From Paludibacteraceae bacterium (GTDB taxonomy: Bacteria > Bacteroidota > Bacteroidia > Bacteroidales > Paludibacteraceae), in contig JAFYWK010000039.1 in assembly GCA_017558065.1 (NCBI GenBank), positions 1 to 63,009 on the forward strand: a stretch of 63,009 nucleotides of DNA, read 5' to 3'. The stretch's first letter is position 1; every line of letters begins with the position of its first letter. The position numbers and the translations under genes were made by a program. Shown piece after piece: positions 4,140 to 30,600 of the stretch. Under the pieces are notes generated by a model that was not told where the DNA came from, did not search any database, and was given only the letters and a program-made list of their open reading frames with translations.

Positions 4140-4373
4140 ATGAACGAAAATGAATTGTTTAATGCGTTTGTATCCGATGCTGCGATTTCGCACCCGCTAA
4201 GCCGGAGAAAGTTTATGAGGTATGCCGTTGAGGCTAGACTGAATGGAAACTTATTTGATGAAGACAGAAAAAGCTCTCTACGCTCTTCCGGTATGAACGA
4301 AAGAGAAATAGAGAGCCTAGAATATGTTTTTAATTGGGTAGATGATATGCTTTATGCTATCGACTGGAAATAG
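4140..4373 (+). CDS. Small acidic hypothetical protein of the lysogeny region
   Basis: 77 residues from the ATG at 4140, preceded by GGAGGAAAGAG at a usable distance; the upstream TTG at 4122 is a weaker choice. Begins MNENELFNAFVSDAAIS and ends in an acidic helix (EYVFNWVDDMLYAIDW). No family recognised. It converges on the gene at 4357-4716 and overlaps it by 17 nt at the 3' ends. Confidence 0.6.
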   Translation: MNENELFNAFVSDAAISHPLSRRKFMRYAVEARLNGNLFDEDRKSSLRSSGMNEREIESLEYVFNWVDDMLYAIDWK

Positions 4374-4716
4374 CATTTAACATTAACTCTCTGGCTGCCA
4401 ATGCTTCTTCCTTTGTATTGAAAATTAGCCCTAGTTCAGTTAGATCTTTGGCTAGTTCACGATTCATAAAGGTAGGGTAATCTGCCAACATTTCTGGGAG
4501 AAGGTCAAAATCTCGAAGAATGTAAAGCTGGGCATACTCTGGGTATTGAGCGGTTTTTATGTGTACAATCTTGTTCTTTTCCGTAATGAAACGATAAATT
4601 TTATTGGCTAGGGCCAATTTTTCTTCGTTAAAATCGGATTTTGATTCAGATACTTTTTCGATACACCACATGCGTAGCTTTGTATCTTCTGTAAGGCTAG
4701 AGAATAGATGTTCCAT
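4357..4716 (-). CDS. Hypothetical helical protein opposite the repressor
   Basis: 119 residues, MEHLFSSLTEDTKLRMWCIE, soluble and predicted mostly helical. It has its own near-perfect promoter at 4741-4771 and is divergently arranged with the repressor gene. This is the position of lytic-switch or anti-repressor genes in many temperate phages, but the sequence shows no DNA-binding motif, so the role is unknown. Confidence 0.65.
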   Translation of the reverse strand: MEHLFSSLTEDTKLRMWCIEKVSESKSDFNEEKLALANKIYRFITEKNKIVHIKTAQYPEYAQLYILRDFDLLPEMLADYPTFMNRELAKDLTELGLIFNTKEEALAARELMLNAISSR

Positions 4717-4740
4717 ATTATTATGTTATTGGTGATTGTG

Positions 4741-4771
4741 CAAAAGTAGTTTATTTAGACTATAATACAAA
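4741..4771 (-). promoter_or_regulatory. Consensus Bacteroides promoter TTTG-N19-TACTTTTG
   Basis: On the minus strand TTTG (4771-4768), exactly 19 bp, then TACTTTTG (4748-4741). This matches the published Bacteroidetes housekeeping consensus in both boxes and spacing. It drives the gene at 4357-4716 and lies within 40 bp of the repressor start, so the repressor could readily control it. Confidence 0.75.
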
Positions 4772-4776
4772 TTATT

Positions 4777-5229
4777 ATGGAAATAGTTTTAAGATTAAAG
4801 GAATTAATAGAAGAAAAAGGATATACGGTTAATTCTTTTGCTCACGAGATTGGAATAGCTCAAGTAACTTTAAATAATTATATAAGACTTAACCGTTTTC
4901 CTGCCTACGAAACTCTCCATGCTATATTGCATACATTCCCTGATATCTCTGCTGAATGGCTGATGCGTGGCGAAGGATCAATGTATATAACAGACGATCT
5001 TCCCATTCTTCGAGGTGATGAAACGGAAGATGAGGAAAATGTACATGTAGCACTGGCCAGATGCCGGGGTGAGTTGAAGCTTGCTCAGGAAGAAAATGTG
5101 AAGCTTCTGGGGCAACTGGAATTTATGGAAGAGTACAACTTGAAGGTAGCCGGTATGTATAATAAGGCCAAGGAAGAATTGGGTAAGCTTCAAGGCAAGA
5201 AAGTGAGTGGTAAAAAAGATATTATTTGA
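4777..5229 (+). CDS. CI-like phage repressor with HTH and coiled coil
   Basis: 150 residues. Residues 1-60 are an HTH_3 (Cro/CI) domain: LRLKELIEEKGYTVNSFAHE, then GIAQVTLNNYIR and the conserved DISAEWLMRGEGSMY tail typical of Bacteroidetes phage repressors. Residues about 85-145 form a heptad-rich coiled coil (LARCRGELKLAQEENVKLLG) that should dimerise the protein. There is no peptidase S24 domain, so it is unlikely to be induced by RecA-type self-cleavage. Its place next to the integrase and between divergent promoters supports a prophage repressor role. Confidence 0.85.
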   Translation: MEIVLRLKELIEEKGYTVNSFAHEIGIAQVTLNNYIRLNRFPAYETLHAILHTFPDISAEWLMRGEGSMYITDDLPILRGDETEDEENVHVALARCRGELKLAQEENVKLLGQLEFMEEYNLKVAGMYNKAKEELGKLQGKKVSGKKDII

Positions 5230-7709: not shown

Positions 7710-8654
7710 CTATAGGAAATATTCTTTGCACTTAAACCCTTTGCGAGGCTCAAAATCTTCAAATTCGCACGTCCGGAACAAATGTTTTCTGTCGGTCCAT
7801 CGCGCCATATCCTTCTGCCATTGCGGGATAATCTGACTTTTGTTCCCGATATCCCGAAATGGTTGGCAATGCGGTAAATACCTGCTGGATCCTTTTTTCT
7901 TCCAATGGTTCACGCGGCTAAACGATTCATCAAAGTCATCAAGCAGGATACAATAAAAGAAATATTCCCCTTTGTATCCGTGTTTGTCGATCATCGCGCA
8001 CGCTTTTTCACATTCTTCAATCTGCTTTGGTGTGTCGCATCCGAAACGTATTTGCTGTATCCACTTCAAACGTGAAAGCATCTTTGCAATTTCATCCGTC
8101 ACTAATCTCGCGTCAAGCCCCTGATTAAAATCGACCTTGATCTTCTTCATTCGGCCTTCATTCATCTTTATGATTTTCTCGATCTGTTCTATTCCATGGT
8201 CACTAGCAAGAATGTTATTATCCATTAATATTAATTCATTTCTGCCGTCTATTGCTATTTCTTCAACATCCATATAAGGCTTGATATCTCCTTCCTTTTT
8301 GGGAACTATACACCATTTGCACTTATTAGGGCATCCTCTTGTCAAGAATCCGTAAGCGGTTTTATGTCCAATACTAGGATATATAGAATAGTCTAGTTTT
8401 ATATGTTCTATTTCTTCGGGAAGAGTAGAAGAAATGTCGTATCCGGTACCACCTTTACAAATTTGAGTAGTATTAGTCATGTATTGCCCGTAATCAGGTG
8501 TAAAAGAAAAGATCTTTGACATATATACAATGTCGTATTTGTCAAAAGGATTATACCATTCAACTAAGTCCCCTTTGCCTTTATGATAAGAAGATATTTT
8601 CATAAGAGCTAAGTTCGGGTAATTGCTATCTACTGCCAAAAGACCTATATTCAT
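7710..8654 (-). CDS. Radical SAM enzyme
   Basis: 314 residues. The [4Fe-4S] motif is canonical CX3CX2C: TRGCPNKCKWCIVPKKEG at about residues 105-120. The N-terminus (MNIGLLAVDSNYPNLAL) resembles the Rossmann-like part of B12-binding-type radical SAM proteins, but I see no cobalamin DxHxxG motif. The C-terminal part is Lys/Arg/Cys-rich. I recall phage-borne homologues from Bacteroides prophages, with unknown substrate; nucleic-acid or peptide modification is possible. It is the last gene of the minus accessory operon and could be a lysogenic conversion gene. Confidence 0.85.
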   Translation of the reverse strand: MNIGLLAVDSNYPNLALMKISSYHKGKGDLVEWYNPFDKYDIVYMSKIFSFTPDYGQYMTNTTQICKGGTGYDISSTLPEEIEHIKLDYSIYPSIGHKTAYGFLTRGCPNKCKWCIVPKKEGDIKPYMDVEEIAIDGRNELILMDNNILASDHGIEQIEKIIKMNEGRMKKIKVDFNQGLDARLVTDEIAKMLSRLKWIQQIRFGCDTPKQIEECEKACAMIDKHGYKGEYFFYCILLDDFDESFSRVNHWKKKGSSRYLPHCQPFRDIGNKSQIIPQWQKDMARWTDRKHLFRTCEFEDFEPRKGFKCKEYFL

Positions 8655-9896: not shown

Positions 9897-10093
9897 TCTG
9901 TTTCCTCCTTCATTTCATACCACTCACAATCATAAGACCACGCGATACTCCACCAATACAAATCCGGTTCCACTCCATCCTCGAAGACGAAACGACGACC
10001 GTCAAACATTATCCATTCGTCATGGAAATACTGGCAGGTTATTTTCTTATCAGGATTACTAAGCATCCATGCTCTTGCTTCTTTTAATGTCAT
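9893..10093 (-). CDS. Small acidic, Trp-rich hypothetical protein
   Basis: 66 residues from the ATG at 10093 (MTLKEARAWMLSNPDKKITC), preceded by a clear GGAGG, which decides this start over an upstream alternative at 10111. Ends DCEWYEMKEETE. The start overlaps the TGA of the upstream gene as ATGA. The fold is probably a small alpha/beta domain; function unknown. Confidence 0.65.
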   Translation of the reverse strand: MTLKEARAWMLSNPDKKITCQYFHDEWIMFDGRRFVFEDGVEPDLYWWSIAWSYDCEWYEMKEETE

Positions 10094-10503
10094 AGAGGTT
10101 CCTCCTTGCAATTTATATTCTTGAGAGCTTCAACTAGCTTTTCGGCTATTTTTACAGACACTTCTGCAAGAGTAGTTTCGTTTCTTACTGCATTAACTGG
10201 GCTAGCGCATATACCTTGCATAGCAGCAATAGCCGCTTGGATTCGTACTTGCTCCCAGTTGCTGGCTTCTTTTGAATGCTTTTTTAAGAATACGTCGTAA
10301 TAACCATCAAAGTAAGCCTTTGAGACACTTATAATGTCGTATCCTGCTTTCTTTGCGTCTTGCGCAAACAAGGTGTAAAAACCGTCTACGATACATATAT
10401 TCGCATCTTCTAAATTTCTTAAGACTATATCCTTTAATACACTAAGGTGATATTCGTATTTAACTAGATCTTTATCTGATAAGCATTCTTTGTAGTCGCT
10501 CAT
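10090..10503 (-). CDS. Hypothetical protein
   Basis: 137 residues from the ATG at 10503 (MSDYKECLSDKDLVKYEYHL); the longer reading from 10527 would enter a small hairpin. Mostly helical, with HSKEASNWEQVRIQAAIAAM in the middle and a helical C-terminus (KIAEKLVEALKNINCKEEPL). No signal or membrane segment. Family not recognised. Confidence 0.65.
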   Translation of the reverse strand: MSDYKECLSDKDLVKYEYHLSVLKDIVLRNLEDANICIVDGFYTLFAQDAKKAGYDIISVSKAYFDGYYDVFLKKHSKEASNWEQVRIQAAIAAMQGICASPVNAVRNETTLAEVSVKIAEKLVEALKNINCKEEPL

Positions 10504-18600: not shown

Positions 18601-21600
18601 CGCCAGCAGGTAGCCAGAGAACGTCTGAGAAACTCCGGCATGCTGGATGAAGCCATTGATGCAATCGGTGAAGCTGATGATGCCAACCGTGAAGCGTTGT
18701 TGTCCAATCTCGACAATGAACAACGTAGACTTGCAGAAGACTATTTGCAGCAGAACGATGTAGTGGACGGCATGAATGAGGCCCTAACTATGGCGCATCT
18801 ACCGGAAGCGGAAGCGGCTGAAACGCTTGCCCAAAATATGGTATCTCCTCATGGTAAAATAGTAGTGGTAGCCCTTGGTAAGAATGAGGATCCTACGCAC
18901 AAATATGGTGTGGTGGTAAACGGTATAGACGCGACAGGCAACCTGGTTTCTCCGGAAGGACAGATAATCGTTGTTCCTCTTGAGGCTTCTGAAATTGCCA
19001 ATATAGATTTCTCTACCTTTGACGACACCAAGGCTATATCTATGCGCATGGAGGATGCTTGGGGCTATGTTTTCCAGTTTGAATCTGAATATGTCATGGA
19101 TTCAATGCTAAGTGCAGCCCAGGAAGACGAAAACATTCTGGAAGGACAAACTCCTATTGTCCCTGGACAAACTGTATTACTGGCCGACACTGAAGGTAAT
19201 ACCGTAAGTGCACAAGTCGTAGGCGGATCCCGTAAAAATGGATGGATGGTGATGGAAGAAGGTACTAACGAACCGACCGCCATTACAGAAGAAGAATTGC
19301 GCGAAATGATGCTCAATGCCGAAAGAATCCCTATCATGCAGGAATATGAAGCGGCAGACAAGGCTTATGAGCGTGAACAGCGCGAAATCCATCGCCAGGA
19401 AGAACGTGCAGCACAGAAGGCTAAAGAAGCCGAAGAGGCAGCACGTATAGCCGAGGAAATGAAGAAGCCCATTAACCGCCTGGCCAAATATCCGGAAGGG
19501 CACAAGAACGCCGGAAAACCGGACTATGAGAACAGCCAGCCGGAAGATGTTCGTGCATACCTGGTAGAATCACTTGGCCTGGATGGTGCTGTAAAGAGCA
19601 TGCGCAACATGCGTACATCCCTTGAAAAACAAGTGGCTGAACAGAGTGCCAAGATTGAAACCATACGTACTGAAATGGAAGAAAGCGACTTCTTCCCAGA
19701 TGAGGCTATCGCTGCTCGTGAACTGCTGGCAGAAGAAGAAATGAACCTGACGGAAGCGCAGCGTAAACTGGACTTCTGGAAAGTCATGGAAAGAATTACT
19801 GCCGGTCCTACCCAAGAAGAGGCGCAGGCAGCCGTAACACGTAGTGAAGCGCAGCAGAAAGCAGCAAAAACAAAGCGTGAAGTGTATAAGCCTAGCGACG
19901 ATTACCGAAAGATGCAAAAGGAGTTTTCCGATAGCGAAACCGCTCTTTCTGTACTGAACGACCTGGAACCGCATACACCGGAAGAGCTTGCAGCGCAGCT
20001 GATTAGCGGTGGTGTACGCTTGATGAAAGCGGATGAACAGGTGGGTGATACTACCTTGAAAGGTGTAATGAGCATGACCGGATACGGCCAGGCAGACTTG
20101 CAACGATTGAACTTTGTATTCGCTACCCGTGCCAATAGCGGCGTAAGCGTGAGCGAGTTCGGAGAAATGCTTGAACAGGCAGCAAAGGATGCAGGAATCC
20201 GTTTCAGCGGCAAGACGCAGGAAGAAGGCGCAAACGCCTTGCTCAGCTTACTCGGCGAAGTGGAGACAATAGGCGACATCAACCGCTATGTAGAGCGTAA
20301 CCGTATGCGTGAGGCAAAAAAACTTTACGATGAAGAAGCGAACCATTTCGAGGATATGCACGAAATGGTAGTTTGGGATGAGTACGGAATGAGTTACGCA
20401 GACTACCGAAAACTACAGGATGCGATTACAAGTATAGTGGAAATCCGTGCAGGATTTACGCAAGATTTTTGGGAAAGTGAAACATATAATGAATTTATTT
20501 CTAATTTTGCAGCAAACATAGCAGACAATGGACAAGAAGGAAATGACAATGCAGGCAGCCCAGGTGGTATCGCAGAAGTTGGGGACAATGTCGCCGACGG
20601 AACTGGAAACCTTGTTGAAGGAAATCAAGAGACAGCCGAAAGTGTACGACCGGTTGCTGAAATTTCAACTGGTAGAGAACAGGGTGCGCAAGCTCCACAA
20701 GGAACAGCCGAAAACAGACCAGCAGATGGTAACGGGAATGATGTTCCAGTATCTACTGGACAAGGAACTGGCAGCGATGAAGGCCGCACAAGCGTAAGCG
20801 CTGAACAGATTGAGCAGGCCAAGCAGCTTGCGAATGAAGCGATTGAGGAAGTCAAGAAGGAGATTCAAGGAAGACCGGTAACTGTTGTAGGTCGCTTGGA
20901 AGACCTTTCTTTGTATAAAGAGCGTGTAGGTGAAGAAATCTTTTCCAAGATAGAAGGAGGCTATAATGAACCTGGTTCGCTTGCATCTTATGTGTATGAA
21001 GTGGATGAAATATTTGTATGGGCTAACAAGGCAGCTAAAAATGGAGCCGGTAAACAGGCTATGAAGGCTGCTGTTTACCATGAGAATATTCATTCCCTGA
21101 TTCGTGGAGACCGCTATACAGAAGAAGAGTTCAAGTCATTTGCAAACCAGATCCGCGAGGCATTCCCTGACATTGATGATTATGTAGAGAGAGCTTACGC
21201 ATCGTTCCCACAGAGCATTAAAAACGAAGAGGTAGTAACCCGCTATGTGGAAGACTTGGTAGATAGCAGACTGGAAGGCTTGATGTTGGACGGTGAAGGG
21301 CGCATCGAAGGAGATACGGATGCTATTGGCGAAGAATTGAATCATGTTATCAATTTATTAAAGGACAGGAAGTATGAACGACAAGGAAGAAATGGTAGAG
21401 GACAGACATTATCTGTTGCAGACCGATCAGAAAACGGGCAAACAGCACATCGTTTGCAAGAGGACATATCATCCGAAAAGCAAGAATCCGTACACTCCAT
21501 GGAAGAACAAGGAACTGTGGGAACAAGCGAAGGCGTTGGGGTGGCCGGACGAAAAGAGCTTTACGGAAGTGTGCCGGGAAATGGATCGGCTGGAGAAGGA

Positions 21601-24600
21601 AGCGAAGGACAAAAGCTGGTACCAGCAACAGGAAGAGAGGGCAAAGAAGGAAATGCAGATACCTACGTTGTAGAGAAGCGTCACCATGCAAAGCTGGACC
21701 AGGACGTTTGGGCGGTAAAGTTTACCGAACGTTTCGACCGTGACAAGTTCCTGGAACTGAAAAAAGAGGTAAAGAAATTCAGAGGCTATTACTCTTCTTA
21801 TGGAAAGGGTGGTTTCATTTTTGAAGATGAAGCGCATGCTCGCAAGTTTGCGGAAAGTGTTGTGGGCGTTGAGGCACCAGTAGCATCGGCAATCGAACAG
21901 GCCCGTGCGGAAGTAAATACCAATCCTAGCGAAGCACAGAAGGAAGCGGGTAACTACAAAATGGGGCATTTGAAGCTGGACGGCTACGATATTACCATCG
22001 AAAACCCGAAAGGCAGCGTGCGTAGCGGTAAGGATGCCAACGGTAAGGAATGGCGTACTACCATGAACAATGACTACGGCTATATCCGTGGTACAAAGGC
22101 CGTGGATGGCGACCATATAGACGTGTTCTTGTCCGACAAGCCGGAAGAAGGCCGTGTATTTGTGGTAGATCAGACCAACCAGGACGGCAGCTTTGATGAA
22201 AGCAAGGTGATGTATGGCTTCAATTCTCTTGAAGAGGCCCGCGAAGCTTATCTTTCCAACTATGATGCCGGATGGGAAAGCCGTATCATGGCGATTACGG
22301 AAGTATCGAAGGAAGAGTTTAAGAAGTGGATTGATTCTTCTACCCGAAAGACAAAGGCGTTTAGCGAGTATAAGAGTGTGAAATCAGCAGAAGGAAATGA
22401 ATTAAAACCAACATACGATGAACAAGGTAGAGAAACTATTGAAAGCCAAGCAGGACGTTCTCGCGGCGAAGCAGAGCGTTTGGCAAGCGAAGCGGAATCT
22501 GGAAGCCTGGAAGCAGCGTCTGCAGCAGGAAGAGGAAGCGGAACAAGCGGAAATAGACCAGCTGAGAGCGCAGGTGGAAGCAGAAAACCGGAAAGCGTAA
22601 ACGGATACCGTATTGGTGAAAAGGTCCTTTATAAGGGCAAGGAAGTTACTATCTACGAATTTGAGAACGACGGCACGCCTGTACTTGATACAGGTATGGC
22701 TCCGGTGATCTATGAAGTGGGTTACTGGGATAATATTGAGAAGCTACCGACTACCGTTGAACAAATCAACCGAATTGCGGAAGCAGCCAAGCCGAGCAAG
22801 AAGTTGGAACGTGCGGAAAGATCCCGTAAGAAAAACCAGGCGAAGCGCGAAAAGCAAAAAGAGCAAATGGTAGATTTGTTCAGCCAAGTGGATGCCATGG
22901 AAGAAAAGCTGGTGCGCCAGGAACAGGAAATAGACGCACAGCTGGCGCTTCTTTCTGAATATAAGGCAGGCCCGAAGGCGCAAGTACGTGAAGACATGCA
23001 CACGGGAGCTGCCAAGACGCTTGAAAAGGCTGGCCGTAAGTTTGCAAAGGCTCTTGCATCCCGACTAGGCGGTCACGTAGACGGCAAGGATATCAGTAAC
23101 GGACTGACAAACATAGCTCCTATCGGTGGAGATATGGTATTCCGTGTATGGCTGGATGATGCTGATACGCAAGGCGTGATGATGCTTATCAACTTTGACG
23201 CAGCTCCGGATACCCAGGATTTCGACAAGCTGGTGCCGAAGTATGGCTTCTGGAGAATGATCAGCGATAAGGACCGCTCCGGTGTGCGAAACAGCAACCA
23301 TAACTTCTACATCGAGAACATGAACGAGCTGGAAAGCGGTTCTCTCATGTCAAGGATTGCAGATGACATGCTTTCCGCTTTGAACCGTGAAGCGGTGAAA
23401 GCCAGCAATGTTACGACCGAAAAACGACCGAAAACGACTGCTGAACGACCGGAAACAACTGAAGTATTAACCAATAAAAAGGAAGAAGATGGACGAAATC
23501 AAGGAACGGATTCAGGAATGGGAACAGAAGCACGGCAAGAAGCTGAGCGAACTGAACCAGGAAGAGACGATCGAGGCGTGCATGGAAATAATGTGCCTGA
23601 CACGCAGGGAAGCGGAAGAGTATCTGAGCGCGATGGCGAGCAGCAGCCTTCTGTAAACGAACCGTCGCCGGTAGCAGCCAGCGTGAAACGTAACACTCAC
23701 AACTGGAGCTATGGCGAAACACATCTGGAACTTCCTACTGGCGAGATAGGCAAGCTGAAAGGCAACATTGAAGCTATCCGCACATTGAAGGAACTGGAAG
23801 CCAGCGGACAGCCCGCCACACCGGAACAAAAACAAGCCTTGTTGAAGTTCGTAGGTTGGGGCGGCCTGGCTGAGGCTTTGAACTCGGCAGAATATGCCGA
23901 CTGGCAAAGAAAGGTAAAGGAAGCCAAACGATGGGGATGGAGCGAAACTGGAGCAGCTACATCTTGGAGCAAGAAGTGGGGCAAGCACTATGAAGATTTG
24001 CGTCCTCTTATGACTGACGAGGAATGGGCAGCCGCACAGGCTTCTACCTTGAACAGCCACTATACACCGGAAACTGTAATCCGTGGCTTGTGGGAAGCCT
24101 TGGAATATATGGGATTCAAGGGAGGAAGCATACAGGAGCCGGCTATGGGTGTAGGCCATATTCTCGGTTTCATGCCGAAAGCAATCAGCGAACGAAGCAT
24201 GTTGAGCGGTTTTGAGCTTGACAGCATCCCTGGACGTATAGCCAAGCAGCTCTATCCGGATGCGGACATTACTGTAGCCGGTTATGAAACCCAGTTCAGA
24301 CCAGGCTCGAAGGATGCTATCGTTACCAATGTGCCGTTTGGACAGACTGCTCCGGTAGATCCGGCACTGGACAAGGCATTGCGCAAGAAGCTTGGATCTT
24401 CTTACAATCTTCACAATTACTTTATCATCAAGGGCCTCTTGGAACTCCGCCCAGGCGGTGTAGGTGCCTTTATCACTTCGGCAGCCACTATGGACGGCCG
24501 AAATACCAAAGCACGTGAATACATTTCCAGCTTGGGAGTAGATCTTGTAGGAGCCATCCGTTTGCCGAACAGTACCTTCAAGGCTAACGCAGGTACCGAA

Positions 24601-27600
24601 GTGACAGCCGACATACTGTTCTTCCGCAAGCGATTGCCGGGTGAATCTGGCAACGGCATTGCTTTTACCAGTTTGACACAGGTAGGTACCGGAAAGAACA
24701 AGGTACAGGACAAGAAGGGTAACGACATGTTGGTAGACGTTCCTTTGCTTGTTAATGAATACTTTGCCGAACGTCCGGAAATGATGCTTGGTGAAGTAAT
24801 GACGGCTCACGACGCCGGTAGTGGTGGTCTTTATGGTGGAGATAACTTGACATTGGTAGCCCGTCCTGGTACTGAACTGGCAGCCGAACTGGCGGACGCT
24901 ATCGGACGTTTGCCTGAAAATGTATTTGAAAAGGGTACTGTATCAGGAAAACCGACTGTGCCTGGTGAAGCCACTACACAGAAGGACGGCACTTTGAGCG
25001 TAAAGGACGAAAAGGTGTATGTAGCCAGCAAAGGTGAATTGAGCGAAATCGCTTCTGGTACCTTCAAACATAACGGCAAGACACGCAGCTATGCGGATGC
25101 TACCAAGGACTACCAGGCATTGAAGGAAACGTTGAAGGAGTTGATACAGGCTGAACAGAGCCAAGCGGAAGATCCGGTAGAACTCCGTAAACAGCTTAAT
25201 GCACAGTACGACCAGTTTGTAGAGAAGTATGGCCGCCTGAACGAAAACAAGAACTTGAACGTAGTCATGGAAGAGGATCCGGAAAGATTCCTCCCGCAAG
25301 CACTTGAAAAGGTGGTAACCGTAACCAATCCGACTACCGGCCGACGCACCAAGGTAGTGAGCAAGGGTGACGGCATCCTGGCAAAGCGTGTGAGCCAGCC
25401 TATGACCGAACCGACCACCGCAGAGAATCTGGGCGATGCTATCGGTATAAGCCAGGCATACCGCGGACGTATGGACGTGGGTTACATAGCCGACATGCTC
25501 GGTATTACTACCGACGAAGCACGCGAGCGCATCCTGGCAGAACGTGAAGCGTACGAGGATCCTGTAACCGGTAATCTAGTGGACCGTGACGCGTATTTGA
25601 GCGGAAATATCCGTGAAAAGCTTGAAACAGCCCGTGCAGCTGCTGAAAATGACAGCCGATATGAACAGAACGTAACGGATCTGGAAAAGTCAATGCCAGA
25701 AAGCATCCCGTTTGTGGATATCTTCTACAAGATGGGTACACCATGGATTCCGGAAGATGTATATGAGGACTTTGGCCGTGAAGTGTGCGGTATAGAAAAC
25801 ATGCAGATAAGCTATGCACCTGTTATCGACCAGTTTGTTGTCAATAAAGGCTATATATCCGACTTCACCAAAGCGGGAAACTTTGCGACTACACGCCGTA
25901 ATGCGATGCAGCTTTTTGAAGATGCCATCAATCTCCGCAAGCCTGTTATTATGAAAACCGTTACGGACAGTCACGGTAAGGAAATTCAGGTTCGTGACGA
26001 ACAGGCTACGCAAGAAGCCATCCAGGCCGTTATGGATATGAACGATGCCTTTATCCAGTATATCCAGGAAGCCAAACCGCTTCATGCCAGACTGACCAGC
26101 ATCTATAATGACAGATATAACAATTACCGTTTGCGTGAATACCGCGAACCGGCTTTCAAGGGTGCAGACGGTAAGGTGCATTATCCTAACGCCAATCCGG
26201 CACTCACACTCCGAAAGCACCAGGTAAAGGCCGTGCAGCGCAGCTTGCAAGGCTCTACCTTATTGGCTCACCAGGTAGGTACAGGAAAGACCTTCACCAT
26301 GATCACTACCGCGATGGAAATGCGCCGTCTGGGATTGGCGAAGAAACCGATGATTGTAGTACAGAACGCAACCTTGCAGGACTTTGCATCTGACTTTATG
26401 AAGCTCTATCCTAGTGCAAAGATCCTGGTACCGAATGAAACCGAACGTAGTGCAAGCCAGCGCAAACGCTTGTTCAACTTGATTGCTACGGGTGATTTTG
26501 ACGCAATCATCGTACCGCAAAGCTTCCTGGCGTTTATTCCTGACGATGAAGGACGCAAGAAGGCGCTGATCATGGCACGCGTAGATGAAATCATGGCTGC
26601 TGCTGATGCTCTGCAGTACACTGACAAGCAACTTGCCAACAAGTTGAAAAGAGAAGCCGAAGCCCTGGAATTGTCTTTGAGCGGTGAAGAGAAATCATCA
26701 AAGAAGGGCGGCAAGCGCGTAAAGGACCAGGCCAAGAAGCAAGAATCTGCCCTTGTACGTGAAACGCAGAAGCTTGACCGACGTACGGACGACGTGCTTA
26801 CCTTTGAGCAAATGGGCGTGGATGCCCTCTTCATTGATGAAGCGCACAACTACAAGAAGATAGGCTTCACTACCAAGATGCAGAACGTGAAGGGTGTAGA
26901 TACCGGTTATAGTGAACGTGCTAACAGCCTGTACTTGAAAGTATCTTACGTACAGGAAAAGAATGGTGGCCGTAACGTGATTCTGGCAACGGGAACACCG
27001 ATTACCAACACCATGGCGGAAGTGTGGACCATGATGCGTTTTGTCGCTCCGGAGATCCTTCAAGATTATGGTATCCGTACTTTCGATGAATTTGCGGCTA
27101 CTTTCGGACAAGTGGAGCCGAGCTTGGAACAGAACAGCACAGGTGGATTCAAGATAGCCGACCGTTTCAAGAGCTATGTTAATGTGCCGGAATTGGTAAA
27201 AGCTTTCCGTAGCCATGCCGATGTGGTTCTGACTACTGATGTGGAAGAGTTCAAGGAAAGCAAGAATATTCCGAAGTTGAAAGACGGACGAATGACTAAC
27301 CATGTAATCCAGAAGAGCGACAAGCTTCAGGACGTGATGGATGTGCTTATTGCCGCACTGAAAGAGGACGAAAAGAAGAGCGGAAAGGAGAAAACACCTG
27401 GTCTACCTCTGGTAGTATTCAGCAAGGCAAAGCAGGCAGCCATCGACTTGCGACTGATCAATCCTGAATACACCGATGATCCGGACAGCAAGACAAACCG
27501 GGTAGTAAGTGAAGTAATGCGCATCTATAAGGAAAGCACCCCGGACAAGGGTATCCAGATGATTTTCTGTGACAGTTACCAGAGCCCGGGAAGTGCTCCG

Positions 27601-30600
27601 GCCATTGACTTGTTTGATTACGATCCTAGCGTGCCGCAGTTCAATCTGTACCGCGACATCAAGAACAAGCTGATTGAAGCAGGCATCCCGAAAGAAGAAA
27701 TTGTTATCGTAAGCGAAATTACCAATGCGGACCGCAAGAAGGCCGTGTTCGAGAAAGCGCGTGCGGGTGCCGTACGTGTATTGATTGGCAGTACCGAAAA
27801 GATGGGTGTAGGTGTAAACGTTCAGGAACGTATGATAGCGCTTCACCACATGGATGCTCCTATCCGACCGATGGACTTCGAGCAAAGAAACGGACGCATC
27901 TTGCGCCAGGGTAACATGTTTGCAGCCATGGACAAGCCAGTAGAGGTATTGACTTACGGCGTAGAAGGTACTCTTGACGCTACCGCTTACGAACGATTGC
28001 GCATCAAGCAGGACTTCATCAACCAGATGATGAAGGGTGACGTAAGCGGTCGTGTGATGGAAGAAAGCGACGACGAAGATCCAAGCGGAAAGACATTCAG
28101 CCAAATGGCAGCCGAACTGAGCGGAGACAAGACTTTGCAGCTGCTCTTTATCGCCGAAAACAAGGTGAAGAAGCTGGAAGGATTGCGCCGTAGCCATGAA
28201 ATGAAGCGAGAACAGGCCCGTGTTGAGGCTGCCATGCTGAAAACGGACGTTGTCCGATTGAAGAACAAATTGAAGGATGCTGAAAAGGTGGGCGAACAGG
28301 TTGCAAAGCGCTTCCCGGAAGGTGTAACGAAACTTACCATCAACGGCCGACCGGTAACTGAAAAGCTCAGCAAGGTGCTTGCAGAAACACTGGAAGACTA
28401 CGAAGGACGTTACGCCTTGAACCGTAGTGTAGTGTTCCCTGTTATTGAGCTGAACGACAAGGCAGCCAAGATGGTATTTGGGCATACTTTGGGACAGTTA
28501 CAGTATTCTCTCTTTATGGACAAATTCCAGCTGGTAGATGAAAAGCCTATCAATACCTATGCAGGTGTATGGTTGAGCTTGAACAGCGCTCTGGCCAATA
28601 GCGGCAAGCGTGCGGAAGAGATCCGCCAGGCTATAGCCACTAGCGAAGCCCGTATCAAGGGTGCTGAAAGCATACAGGAAAAGGAGTTTGACAAAATGGA
28701 CGAACTCAAGGAAAGACGCCAGGAAGTGAAGGATCTGAAAGCGGAATTGGCTAAGAAAGCTGAAAATGCGTCTACTCCTACCGGCGATGTGAAATTGGCA
28801 AAGAAGAACTTGAAGAGCAGTGAAAAACCTGTATCTTTGCCGGAAGAAATGGCGGGAGACAGCGAAGAAAGCCTGGACCGTATGGAACAAGCCATGAAGC
28901 CGTTTGAAGAAGTGGCGGTCAATGCTCCTGAAATGGTAATCGCACAAAGCGGTAGCGACATTCTAGCCGCGATGCCTCGTGTAGAGCCTTTGCAGTTTGC
29001 CAAGGTTGTTACAGAAGCAAACCGTCCGGAAGTGCAGGCAATGTATGTGCCATGGACAAAGCAGATTATCATGCTCCCGAAACATGGTACCGTAAAGGAA
29101 ATGCGCGACAAGCGCTGGCATGAAAGCTTCCACTTTGCACTCGACATGGTGTTGCCACAAGGTGATGCAGGCCGACTGATGCTGGAACGTGCGGCCGGAG
29201 AAGTGAACAAACTGGCTCCGACACTCTCAAAATGGGTGGAAGACACTTACGGAAACCGCAATACATCCGAAGAAAAGCTGGTGCACATGCTTGAAGAGGT
29301 ATTGTCCTATATGGAAGATGCCGGAAAGGTAAAGAGCATCCGCGGCGGTCTGGACTTCGGTTCGCAGTATCCTGTATTGAATGAGATCTCTAATAAAGTT
29401 ATTAACTACTTAACCAATAATGGCCATGGCAAAGAAACTGACAATTACTCCGGATATGATGAAGGAAGTGAACCAACGTATCGAGGAGAAGATCAAGAAG
29501 GGCGAAATGAAGAAGACTTCGCAGGTGTACGCGGAATCTCGACCGAAGGAAGAGAAGAAATAAAGTTGTTCTTAAAGAATGGTACTCCTGTTTCTATTCT
29601 TTCTGGCAATGAGTTTGAGAAGAAGGAAGGACAAACGTTTGTTGATCAGGTATCTTCGTTCTTTGAATCTCAAGGCGGGAAAGCTAACAGTGCTTTTGGA
29701 GAAGTTTTGCTAGACCGAAAAGGCGTAAAGAACAGCAAAAATCATGGTATGAGCCGTATTAAAGCCGTTGCATTTGCAGCAGTAAAAGACGTGCTTGAAA
29801 ACGGTATGGTTGCGCTTCCTATGGATTATTATGGAACTGGGGGTAAAAAACAGCCTACCGGAATTATCGTTGCTCCTGTAGAGATTGACAATAAACGTTA
29901 TTATTGTGCGGTTGAAGTCATTCAGAATACAGAAAACAATCGTCTATACGTGCATGAAGCGTTTGCAGAAGAAAAAATCCCTGATTCTGTTGCAGCTAGC
30001 CAAGTCCATAGCGAAGAATCCGCGTCACTTCAGAATCAGGGAGAGATTGCAAAGGTACTGCAAAATATCTTATCTGACAAAAATTCTGATGAAATAAAGC
30101 TAGGCCTTCGCGGAAAGCCAAGAAGAAAGGCGGGTGAAAGCTTGATTGCCTACAACCGACGCTTGAAGGAATGGCAGCAGGAAGTGGAAGAAGCAAAGAA
30201 ACGCCGTGACGTTGAAAACATGGACGTGGAAAATCCTCTTGATAGCGAGCTGAACGACCTGGCTATGGAAATGATGAATCATCCTACCCCTATCCGCAAG
30301 CCGGGTGAAAGTGATGCAGACTTCAATGCACGCCAACAGGAATGGAGCGAGTGGTACACTAACCGCATGCCGGAAATTAACCGACGTATGTCTGAAATCA
30401 AGGTACAGCTTGAAAATGAAAAGGCAGCCGCACGAAGCAAGGAGATGAAACGTACGGAAGAACCTCTCTATACAGGTGAAGTGCCGCCGCAGAAGGACGA
30501 TGAAGGACAGTTGAGCGACGAAGAAATGCGCGAAGTGCGTGAAATCTTCCAGGAAAAGCTTGCAGACATGAAGATTTCAGTAGATAAGGATCAGATCAAG

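Follow-up and report, generated by a model that had tools for sequence, protein, structure and literature searches.

Out-of-frame phage genes that lie wholly or largely within another gene are well known from Rz/Rz1 and phiX174. In viruses, same-strand internal +1 overlaps place a complete small open reading frame (ORF) one base out of phase with a larger gene, with selection acting in the nested frame, and for the polymerase/S genes of Hepatitis B virus the same source gives a model in which a short gene between two domain genes was overlapped upon their joining (PMC8227390). Polyvalent proteins of phages and conjugative elements are very long polypeptides that unite several conflict-type domains, including those of the InPase and LPD3 families (Iyer et al., 2017, PMC5512222). 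Here, we have analyzed a stretch of 63,009 nt from a Paludibacteraceae bacterium (GCA_017558065.1, contig JAFYWK010000039.1, positions 1 to 63,009 of the forward strand), the whole of which is called the window below. It contains a polyvalent gene, the giant, and within it five small ORFs (A to E in order of their starts; Table 1), each a complete same-strand ORF shifted one base 3' relative to the giant frame. On the basis of comparison with homologous giants, the five are very probably real nested +1 genes in the linkers of the giant protein of 5,879 amino acids (aa), and such genes appear, with high confidence, to be far more general than the five in the window.

Nested reading frames in homologous giants

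A protein segment around InPase was used to find the first relatives (27 viral loci), and an alignment of the InPase region then gave the best 80 of 109 genome-contig loci and the best 80 of 152 viral loci, these sets being partly the same. All 163 of 163 loci (duplicate contigs left out) were clustered with the window at 95% nucleotide identity, which gave 142 giants (1,925 kb), many of them cut by the ends of their loci. Almost all of the genome contigs were titled Bacteroidales. Giants of this type also sit on contigs titled as Bacillota and Staphylococcus metagenome-assembled genomes (L090 and L108), which are probably misassigned contigs.

In the 142 giants, 185 +1 ORFs were 40 aa or longer and had a codon score above 0.1, compared with 2 ORFs in the +2 frame. 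Five shuffles of synonymous codons, preserving both the giant protein and its codon usage, gave 7, 5, 8, 8 and 5 such ORFs. At least one nest was present in 111 of the 142 real giants and in 7 after the first shuffle, and across 189 kb of other genes in these loci (136 genes) a single ORF of this kind was present. Of the 90 giants for which 4,500 aa or more were available, 12 had no nest, 29 had one, 38 two, 10 three and 1 five. The named isolate phage BKO1-TP3, the one annotated isolate checked, has two nests by frame scan (locus L182, 10635-10799 and 13182-13445), both unannotated. Antisense ORFs (490 in one frame of the 142 giants) were set aside as explained by codon complementarity. Three genes with a weak DNA match on a Vibrio plasmid had 0 nested ORFs of at least 40 aa scoring above 0, which is too little for judging other phyla.

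All five +1 frames of the window are intact in the nearest relative, locus L002, where the giant frame around each of these +1 nests is open. Among relatives less close than L002, a slot may be occupied by a different nested family or be empty. Nested +1 relatives of D were found in 9 of the 27 first loci (identity 34-91%), and short proteins resembling C were seen by eye at a like position in other giants.

Comparison of the window with L002 revealed position-specific substitution. Outside the nests, changes at giant codon positions 1, 2 and 3 were.179/.132/.460, whereas they were.182/.055/.036 in D,.234/.149/.106 in E,.20/.083/.15 in C and.39/.286/.26 in A; protein-level selection in the nested frame was thus seen for these four. 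In 554 pairs aligned by the giant protein, which are not independent, position 1 changed more than position 3 in 344 within nests and in 0 outside, and changes at giant position 3 were lower in nests than outside in 406. Among 32 disjoint pairs with a nest divergence of at most 0.35, position 1 exceeded position 3 in 27 nests (3 ties, 2 opposite) and in 0 outside; nested identity was higher than giant identity in 27 of the 32, with means of.80 for the nested,.72 for the giant and.70 for the third frame. Alignments of the nested proteins, a kind that favours the nested frame, agreed with nested-frame selection in 904 of 922 pairs. A preliminary description of the window had named conservation of the +1 frame together with fewer third-position changes in the giant frame as support for nested genes, and both sets of giant-aligned pairs bear this out.

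The giant frame was open over 37 of 37 nests, versus 0.44 expected if the nested protein were recoded at random with synonymous codons, and the third frame over 0 of 37 (these nests come from 60 nested ORFs, one giant per near-duplicate group, and the ORFs were chosen within open giants). Over the nests, the giant frame appears to behave like a linker constrained mainly to remain open. Its identity over all pairs was 0.45 in nests versus 0.69 outside, which supports a position of the nests in linkers.

The nested starts also carry an initiation signal. The 185 starts had an A+T content of.708 at -20..-4, peaks of adenine at -14..-12 (.65/.72/.74) and -3 (.62), and a mean folding energy of -3.8 kcal/mol, compared with.504 and -11.2 kcal/mol (400 sampled) for other +1 ATGs; Shine-Dalgarno-like words were rarer at nested starts (9/185 vs 2,957/25,874 other +1 ATGs). 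At 164 ordinary gene starts of the same loci, A+T was.708, with the same adenine peak and -6.2 kcal/mol. In Flavobacterium johnsoniae, adenines at -14 to -11, -6 and -3 are described as positive determinants of initiation (PMC6847099). The nested starts carry the A-rich, unstructured signal of ordinary genes in the same loci, matching host-type starts. By contrast, the start signal was present at only 7 of 201 giant-frame ATGs within 60 codons after nests, compared with 95 of 186 nested starts; translation of the downstream domains thus seems to require read-through.

The five ORFs of the window

The five ATG-initiated ORFs were all present where the preliminary description had placed them, and were the only ones returned when the window giant was scanned for +1 ATG ORFs that are 30 aa or longer and have a positive codon score. 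Their codon log-odds in the +1 frame ranged from 0.20 to 0.475 per codon, versus -0.29 to 0.03 for six other off-frame ORFs of the giant, and exceeded those of the giant frame in four of five cases, the exception being A, slightly below (0.31 vs 0.37). ORF length and common phase are weak evidence by themselves. With synonymous codons shuffled, the longest +1 ORF of the window giant had P = 0.13, and +1 ORFs of at least 55 aa numbered 7 versus a mean of 3.35 (P = 0.027); under random synonymous recoding, C, D and E stayed open in 57-78% and A and B in about 3%. The shared +1 phase, previously taken as a sign, is to be expected because +1 ATG ORFs of at least 35 aa far outnumber +2 ORFs (613 vs 42 in 28 giants); together with the synonymous shuffles, this makes it mostly an effect of codon structure.

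For the start regions (-30..+30) of the five, folding energies lay between -0.7 and -4.1 kcal/mol (-4.1 for ORF A, -0.7 for C and -2.3 for E); of 500 60-nt stretches drawn at random from the giant, 2.2% reached this range. All five have adenine at -3. The AT-rich patch reported beside each start (A+T, -20..-4) was clear for four of them (0.71-0.76) and weak for ORF A (0.53). The placement of the ORFs exactly in linkers is supported in part by the predicted domains, with InPase between B and C and methylase/helicase matches after D. As to the helical translations, D, the sole ORF of the five modelled, was predicted to form three helices (predicted local distance difference test, pLDDT, 86.7).

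Table 1. Nested ORFs, giant gene and giant domains in the window (percentages are identities to L002; log-odds are per codon)
Feature	Coordinates	Strand	Remarks
Nested A, 89 aa	20528..20797	+	L002 ortholog 54%; codon log-odds 0.31; AAA at -14..-12, A at -3
Nested B, 99 aa	21374..21673	+	34% homologue, L002 only; log-odds 0.20; good start signal
Nested C, 60 aa	22418..22600	+	Lysine/glutamine-rich, predicted helix; 85% in L002; log-odds 0.31
Nested D, 55 aa	23489..23656	+	Directly before methylase segment; 91% in L002; 24-row family alignment
Nested E, 47 aa	29420..29563	+	81% in L002 only; log-odds 0.475
Giant polyvalent gene, 5,879 aa	15658..33297	+	Single open frame, frame 0; contains the nested ORFs
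InPase domain (PF18823) of giant	21931..22332	+	Between B and C; E 4.8e-56
Methylase/helicase region of giant	24304..27912	+	After D; SNF2-rel_dom, ResIII above cut-off; Eco57I, Helicase_C below

Pfam matches of the giant above cut-off were InPase, SNF2-related, ResIII and LPD3, with Eco57I methylase and Helicase_C below cut-off, and its homologue in Bacteroides phage BKO1-TP3 is annotated as DarB-like antirestriction. With several distinct conflict-related domains in one polypeptide, phage-type neighbours in the window (matches to integrase, terminase, portal and internal virion protein) and this homologue, the giant belongs with the polyvalent proteins; by analogy with that family, it would be carried in the virion and injected. 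A radical SAM protein gene at 7710-8654 (phrog_9298, E 1.7e-120) adjoins the phage integrase.

At the level of sequence, then, both frames are intact, the +1 frame is under protein-level selection, a start signal is present and the giant frame is kept open. We put at roughly 0.87 the probability that the giant linkers are dual-coding, each nested ORF being a separate small gene that has a start and a stop of its own. Ribosomes would initiate internally at an A-rich, unstructured, Bacteroidota-type site within the giant mRNA to make the small protein, while ribosomes translating the giant would decode these bases as a linker, constrained chiefly to stay open. Actual translation, the use of one transcript and a role of the small proteins are what we infer from this. 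The evidence is strongest for D, then for C and E, then for A, and weakest for B.

Several observations weigh against this reading. With the larger codon model B and D score 0.021 and 0.084, both under the 0.1 threshold of the large scan, and neither is among the 185. For B a single relative was found, and the codon positions (.464/.464/.443) lend it no support; A and E each have a clear ortholog in one relative only. No nest above threshold was present in 31 of the 142 giants, some of them incomplete. The five ORFs and 10 family representatives gave only weak matches to Pfam and PHROGs, none above the Pfam cut-off; Foldseek with two models against PDB and one against BFVD returned no match at E up to 0.001, and a profile search of PDB sequences had best E values of 0.39 and 0.084.

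If the +1 ORFs were untranslated by-products of codon bias and low-complexity linkers, the near-chance length and phase of C, D and E would be accounted for, as would the openness of the +1 frame across these giants; the handful of ORFs in shuffled giants, the position-specific substitution within nests and a start signal not seen at other +1 ATGs make this very improbable. The single phase would equally suit products of programmed frameshifting in the giant, not separately started, which we consider the least probable reading of all, given that each ORF has its own ATG, start signal, unstructured start region and stop. Hardly more credible is the idea that the small ORFs and the domains are separate genes, with the giant frame open over the nests by accident and without read-through. 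The giant frame in nests is indeed scarcely better conserved than the third frame in the giant alignments (0.72 vs 0.70) and no better on the nested alignments, and a few relatives are split, with a frame change at about 7883-7899 in L028 and in-frame stops in L006 (13189) and L019 (9007), after which the frame continues. However, an accident hardly fits a giant frame open over every one of the 37 nests, even when these were chosen inside open giants, and the giant-frame ATGs after nests are without the start signal. The splits in L028, L006 and L019 themselves may be natural or sequence errors.

Families, slots and possible origin of the nested ORFs

To group the nested proteins, B was added by hand to the 185, and 153 of the resulting 186 fell into 27 families at E<1e-7 (a looser E<1e-3 chained 78 proteins together). 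Slots were mapped by the giant segment following each nest. The D family lies directly before the methylase segment (window 23602-23755; 23/24 mapped, median 3 aa away), as do two further families (15/16 and 4/4). A 36-member family (30/31 mapped) and two smaller ones (5/5 and 2/3 mapped) lie about 165-180 aa before InPase; a position of the 36-member family directly before InPase was dropped, given the median gap of 180 aa between its end and the mapped segment. One family (5/7 mapped) lies about 200 aa before window 22600, and mapping gave no position for a 14-member, 105-aa family, whose model has a mixed fold (pLDDT 91.0). Because families of unrelated small genes map before the same segment, one slot can hold unrelated genes, and families are mostly slot-faithful. 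In L175, two related nested +1 proteins stand in tandem (9255 and 9444), which looks like a nested-gene duplication.

When three nested families, and not the giant, served as queries against viral contigs, they returned 24, 11 and 13 matches, some on contigs already collected; 48 of 48 were +1 inside large open frames. A tblastn search of 50,697 phage records, BKO1-TP3 with its two nests among them, returned nothing at E up to 0.1 for D or for one slot-A family. Within the fetched loci, 316 of 320 family matches were nested and 4 free, self-matches included. Of the 4 free ones, one was a self-match in a short L066 frame; the others, a gene in L110 and the D copies of L035 and L036, were downgraded as free-standing genes: the L110 ORF (4295-4486) adjoins a repeat of part of the giant, and for both D copies the -1 frame (101 aa) has remained open. 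In L110 the free nested-family gene and the neighbouring repeat lie upstream of the giant (4295-4932); in L035 (287-1330) and L036 the free D homologue is followed by a Kinase-PolyVal ORF (PF18762) with a +1 ORF (555-788) over its 5' end.

Genome searches with D gave 5 matches in 200 family-level genomes (one the window's own, one weak) and 3 in 393 order-level genomes (one the window's own). A six-row alignment of a slot-A family found none in 198 genomes and the 105-aa family none in 393, but neither search had a positive control, so these empty results show nothing. In genome G564, D stands alone with a closed -1 frame (L237, contig C1, minus strand, 9926-10114 in reverse-complement coordinates) and closes a series of defence-type genes comprising a SEFIR/TIR gene, a PDC-S68 helicase, a type I restriction subunit and a YgjP-like metallopeptidase. 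A stand-alone homologue, which had been proposed as support for nested genes, was thus found for D and not for the other four. In genome G630 (L236 8868-9923), D forms an in-frame part of a 351-aa ORF, close to its C-terminus (profile match 98.2%). This ORF has no Pfam match, and its N-terminus may resemble the 36-member family (66%).

The preliminary description had proposed that ancestral separate genes fused and the small genes between them survived under the new linkers. Conserved overprinted genes and the stand-alone D are in keeping with it; the direction of evolution is not established. Stand-alone and in-frame-fused D fit a fusion origin without proving it. Mean log2 relative synonymous usage was.037 for nested ORFs (chosen partly by codon score),.051 for the giant elsewhere, -.048 for the giant over nests and -.13 for the third frame; typical usage in the nested frame, with atypical usage in the giant above it, favours older small genes under younger linkers. 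Alternatively, the nested genes could be real but have arisen de novo, overprinted on existing linkers without any operon fusion. Unfused domain genes with small genes between them were found neither in the fetched loci nor in the genome searches with two nested families at each of the order and family levels, which counts against a fusion history, and nearly all family matches are nested; among viral overlaps, moreover, the internal +1 frame is described as more often the newer member (PMC8227390). Against such an origin stand the codon usage, although according to the same source old de novo genes may look typical too, the closed -1 frame of D in G564 and its in-frame fusion in G630, and linkers that are filler-like in the giant frame. 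De novo overprinting seems the less probable origin, if one to be taken seriously, and fusion or insertion the more plausible one.

As for function, the small proteins may be partners of the injected giant or of the domain after the nest, in folding, assembly or activity, which we suggest with caution as the likeliest of their roles. That they are instead counter-defence proteins independent of the giant seems somewhat less likely: polyvalent genes do serve in conflict with hosts (PMC5512222), and the stand-alone D homologue lies near a type I restriction subunit and SEFIR/TIR genes, though in a bacterial locus, but PADLOC gave no match for D, and the exclusive occurrence of three families inside giants in viral contigs suggests a tie to the giant. 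The remaining probability falls to other roles. The defence-type neighbourhood in G564 is only a lead to the function of D. Only tentatively might all this be combined in one picture, in which the linkers would be slots for exchangeable +1 genes, with families faithful to their slots, products serving the giant or counter-defence, small genes older than the linkers, and the giant a fused operon that kept the genes between its parts.

Comparison with known systems

Rz/Rz1 and phiX174 present single nested partners in small genes, unlike the repertoire in the linkers of a giant gene described here. Our data suggest that giant phage proteins can harbour genes in their 'disordered linkers', and that conserved small phage proteins have been overlooked by ordinary gene finding because they lie inside another gene. 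They would be a source of new small proteins encoded within genes thought to counter host defences, and the recurrent slots, together with the named isolate BKO1-TP3, offer a tractable system for asking whether operons fuse into giant genes while retaining intervening genes. No report of out-of-frame genes in polyvalent genes was found in a PMC-centred literature search (preprints outside PMC and most subscription journals not covered). In the text of the paper on polyvalent proteins, 'overlapping' and 'out-of-frame' both have 0 occurrences (PMC5512222), whereas here the linkers appear to carry extra genes. The Hepatitis B virus case concerns an unrelated virus and one overlap, whereas here there are several small genes per giant and no ancestral form has been found (PMC8227390). 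Finally, in contrast with the viral internal +1 overlaps described in that source, the present ones comprise many families in fixed slots of one giant, with order-wide hosts and a containing frame that is filler-like.

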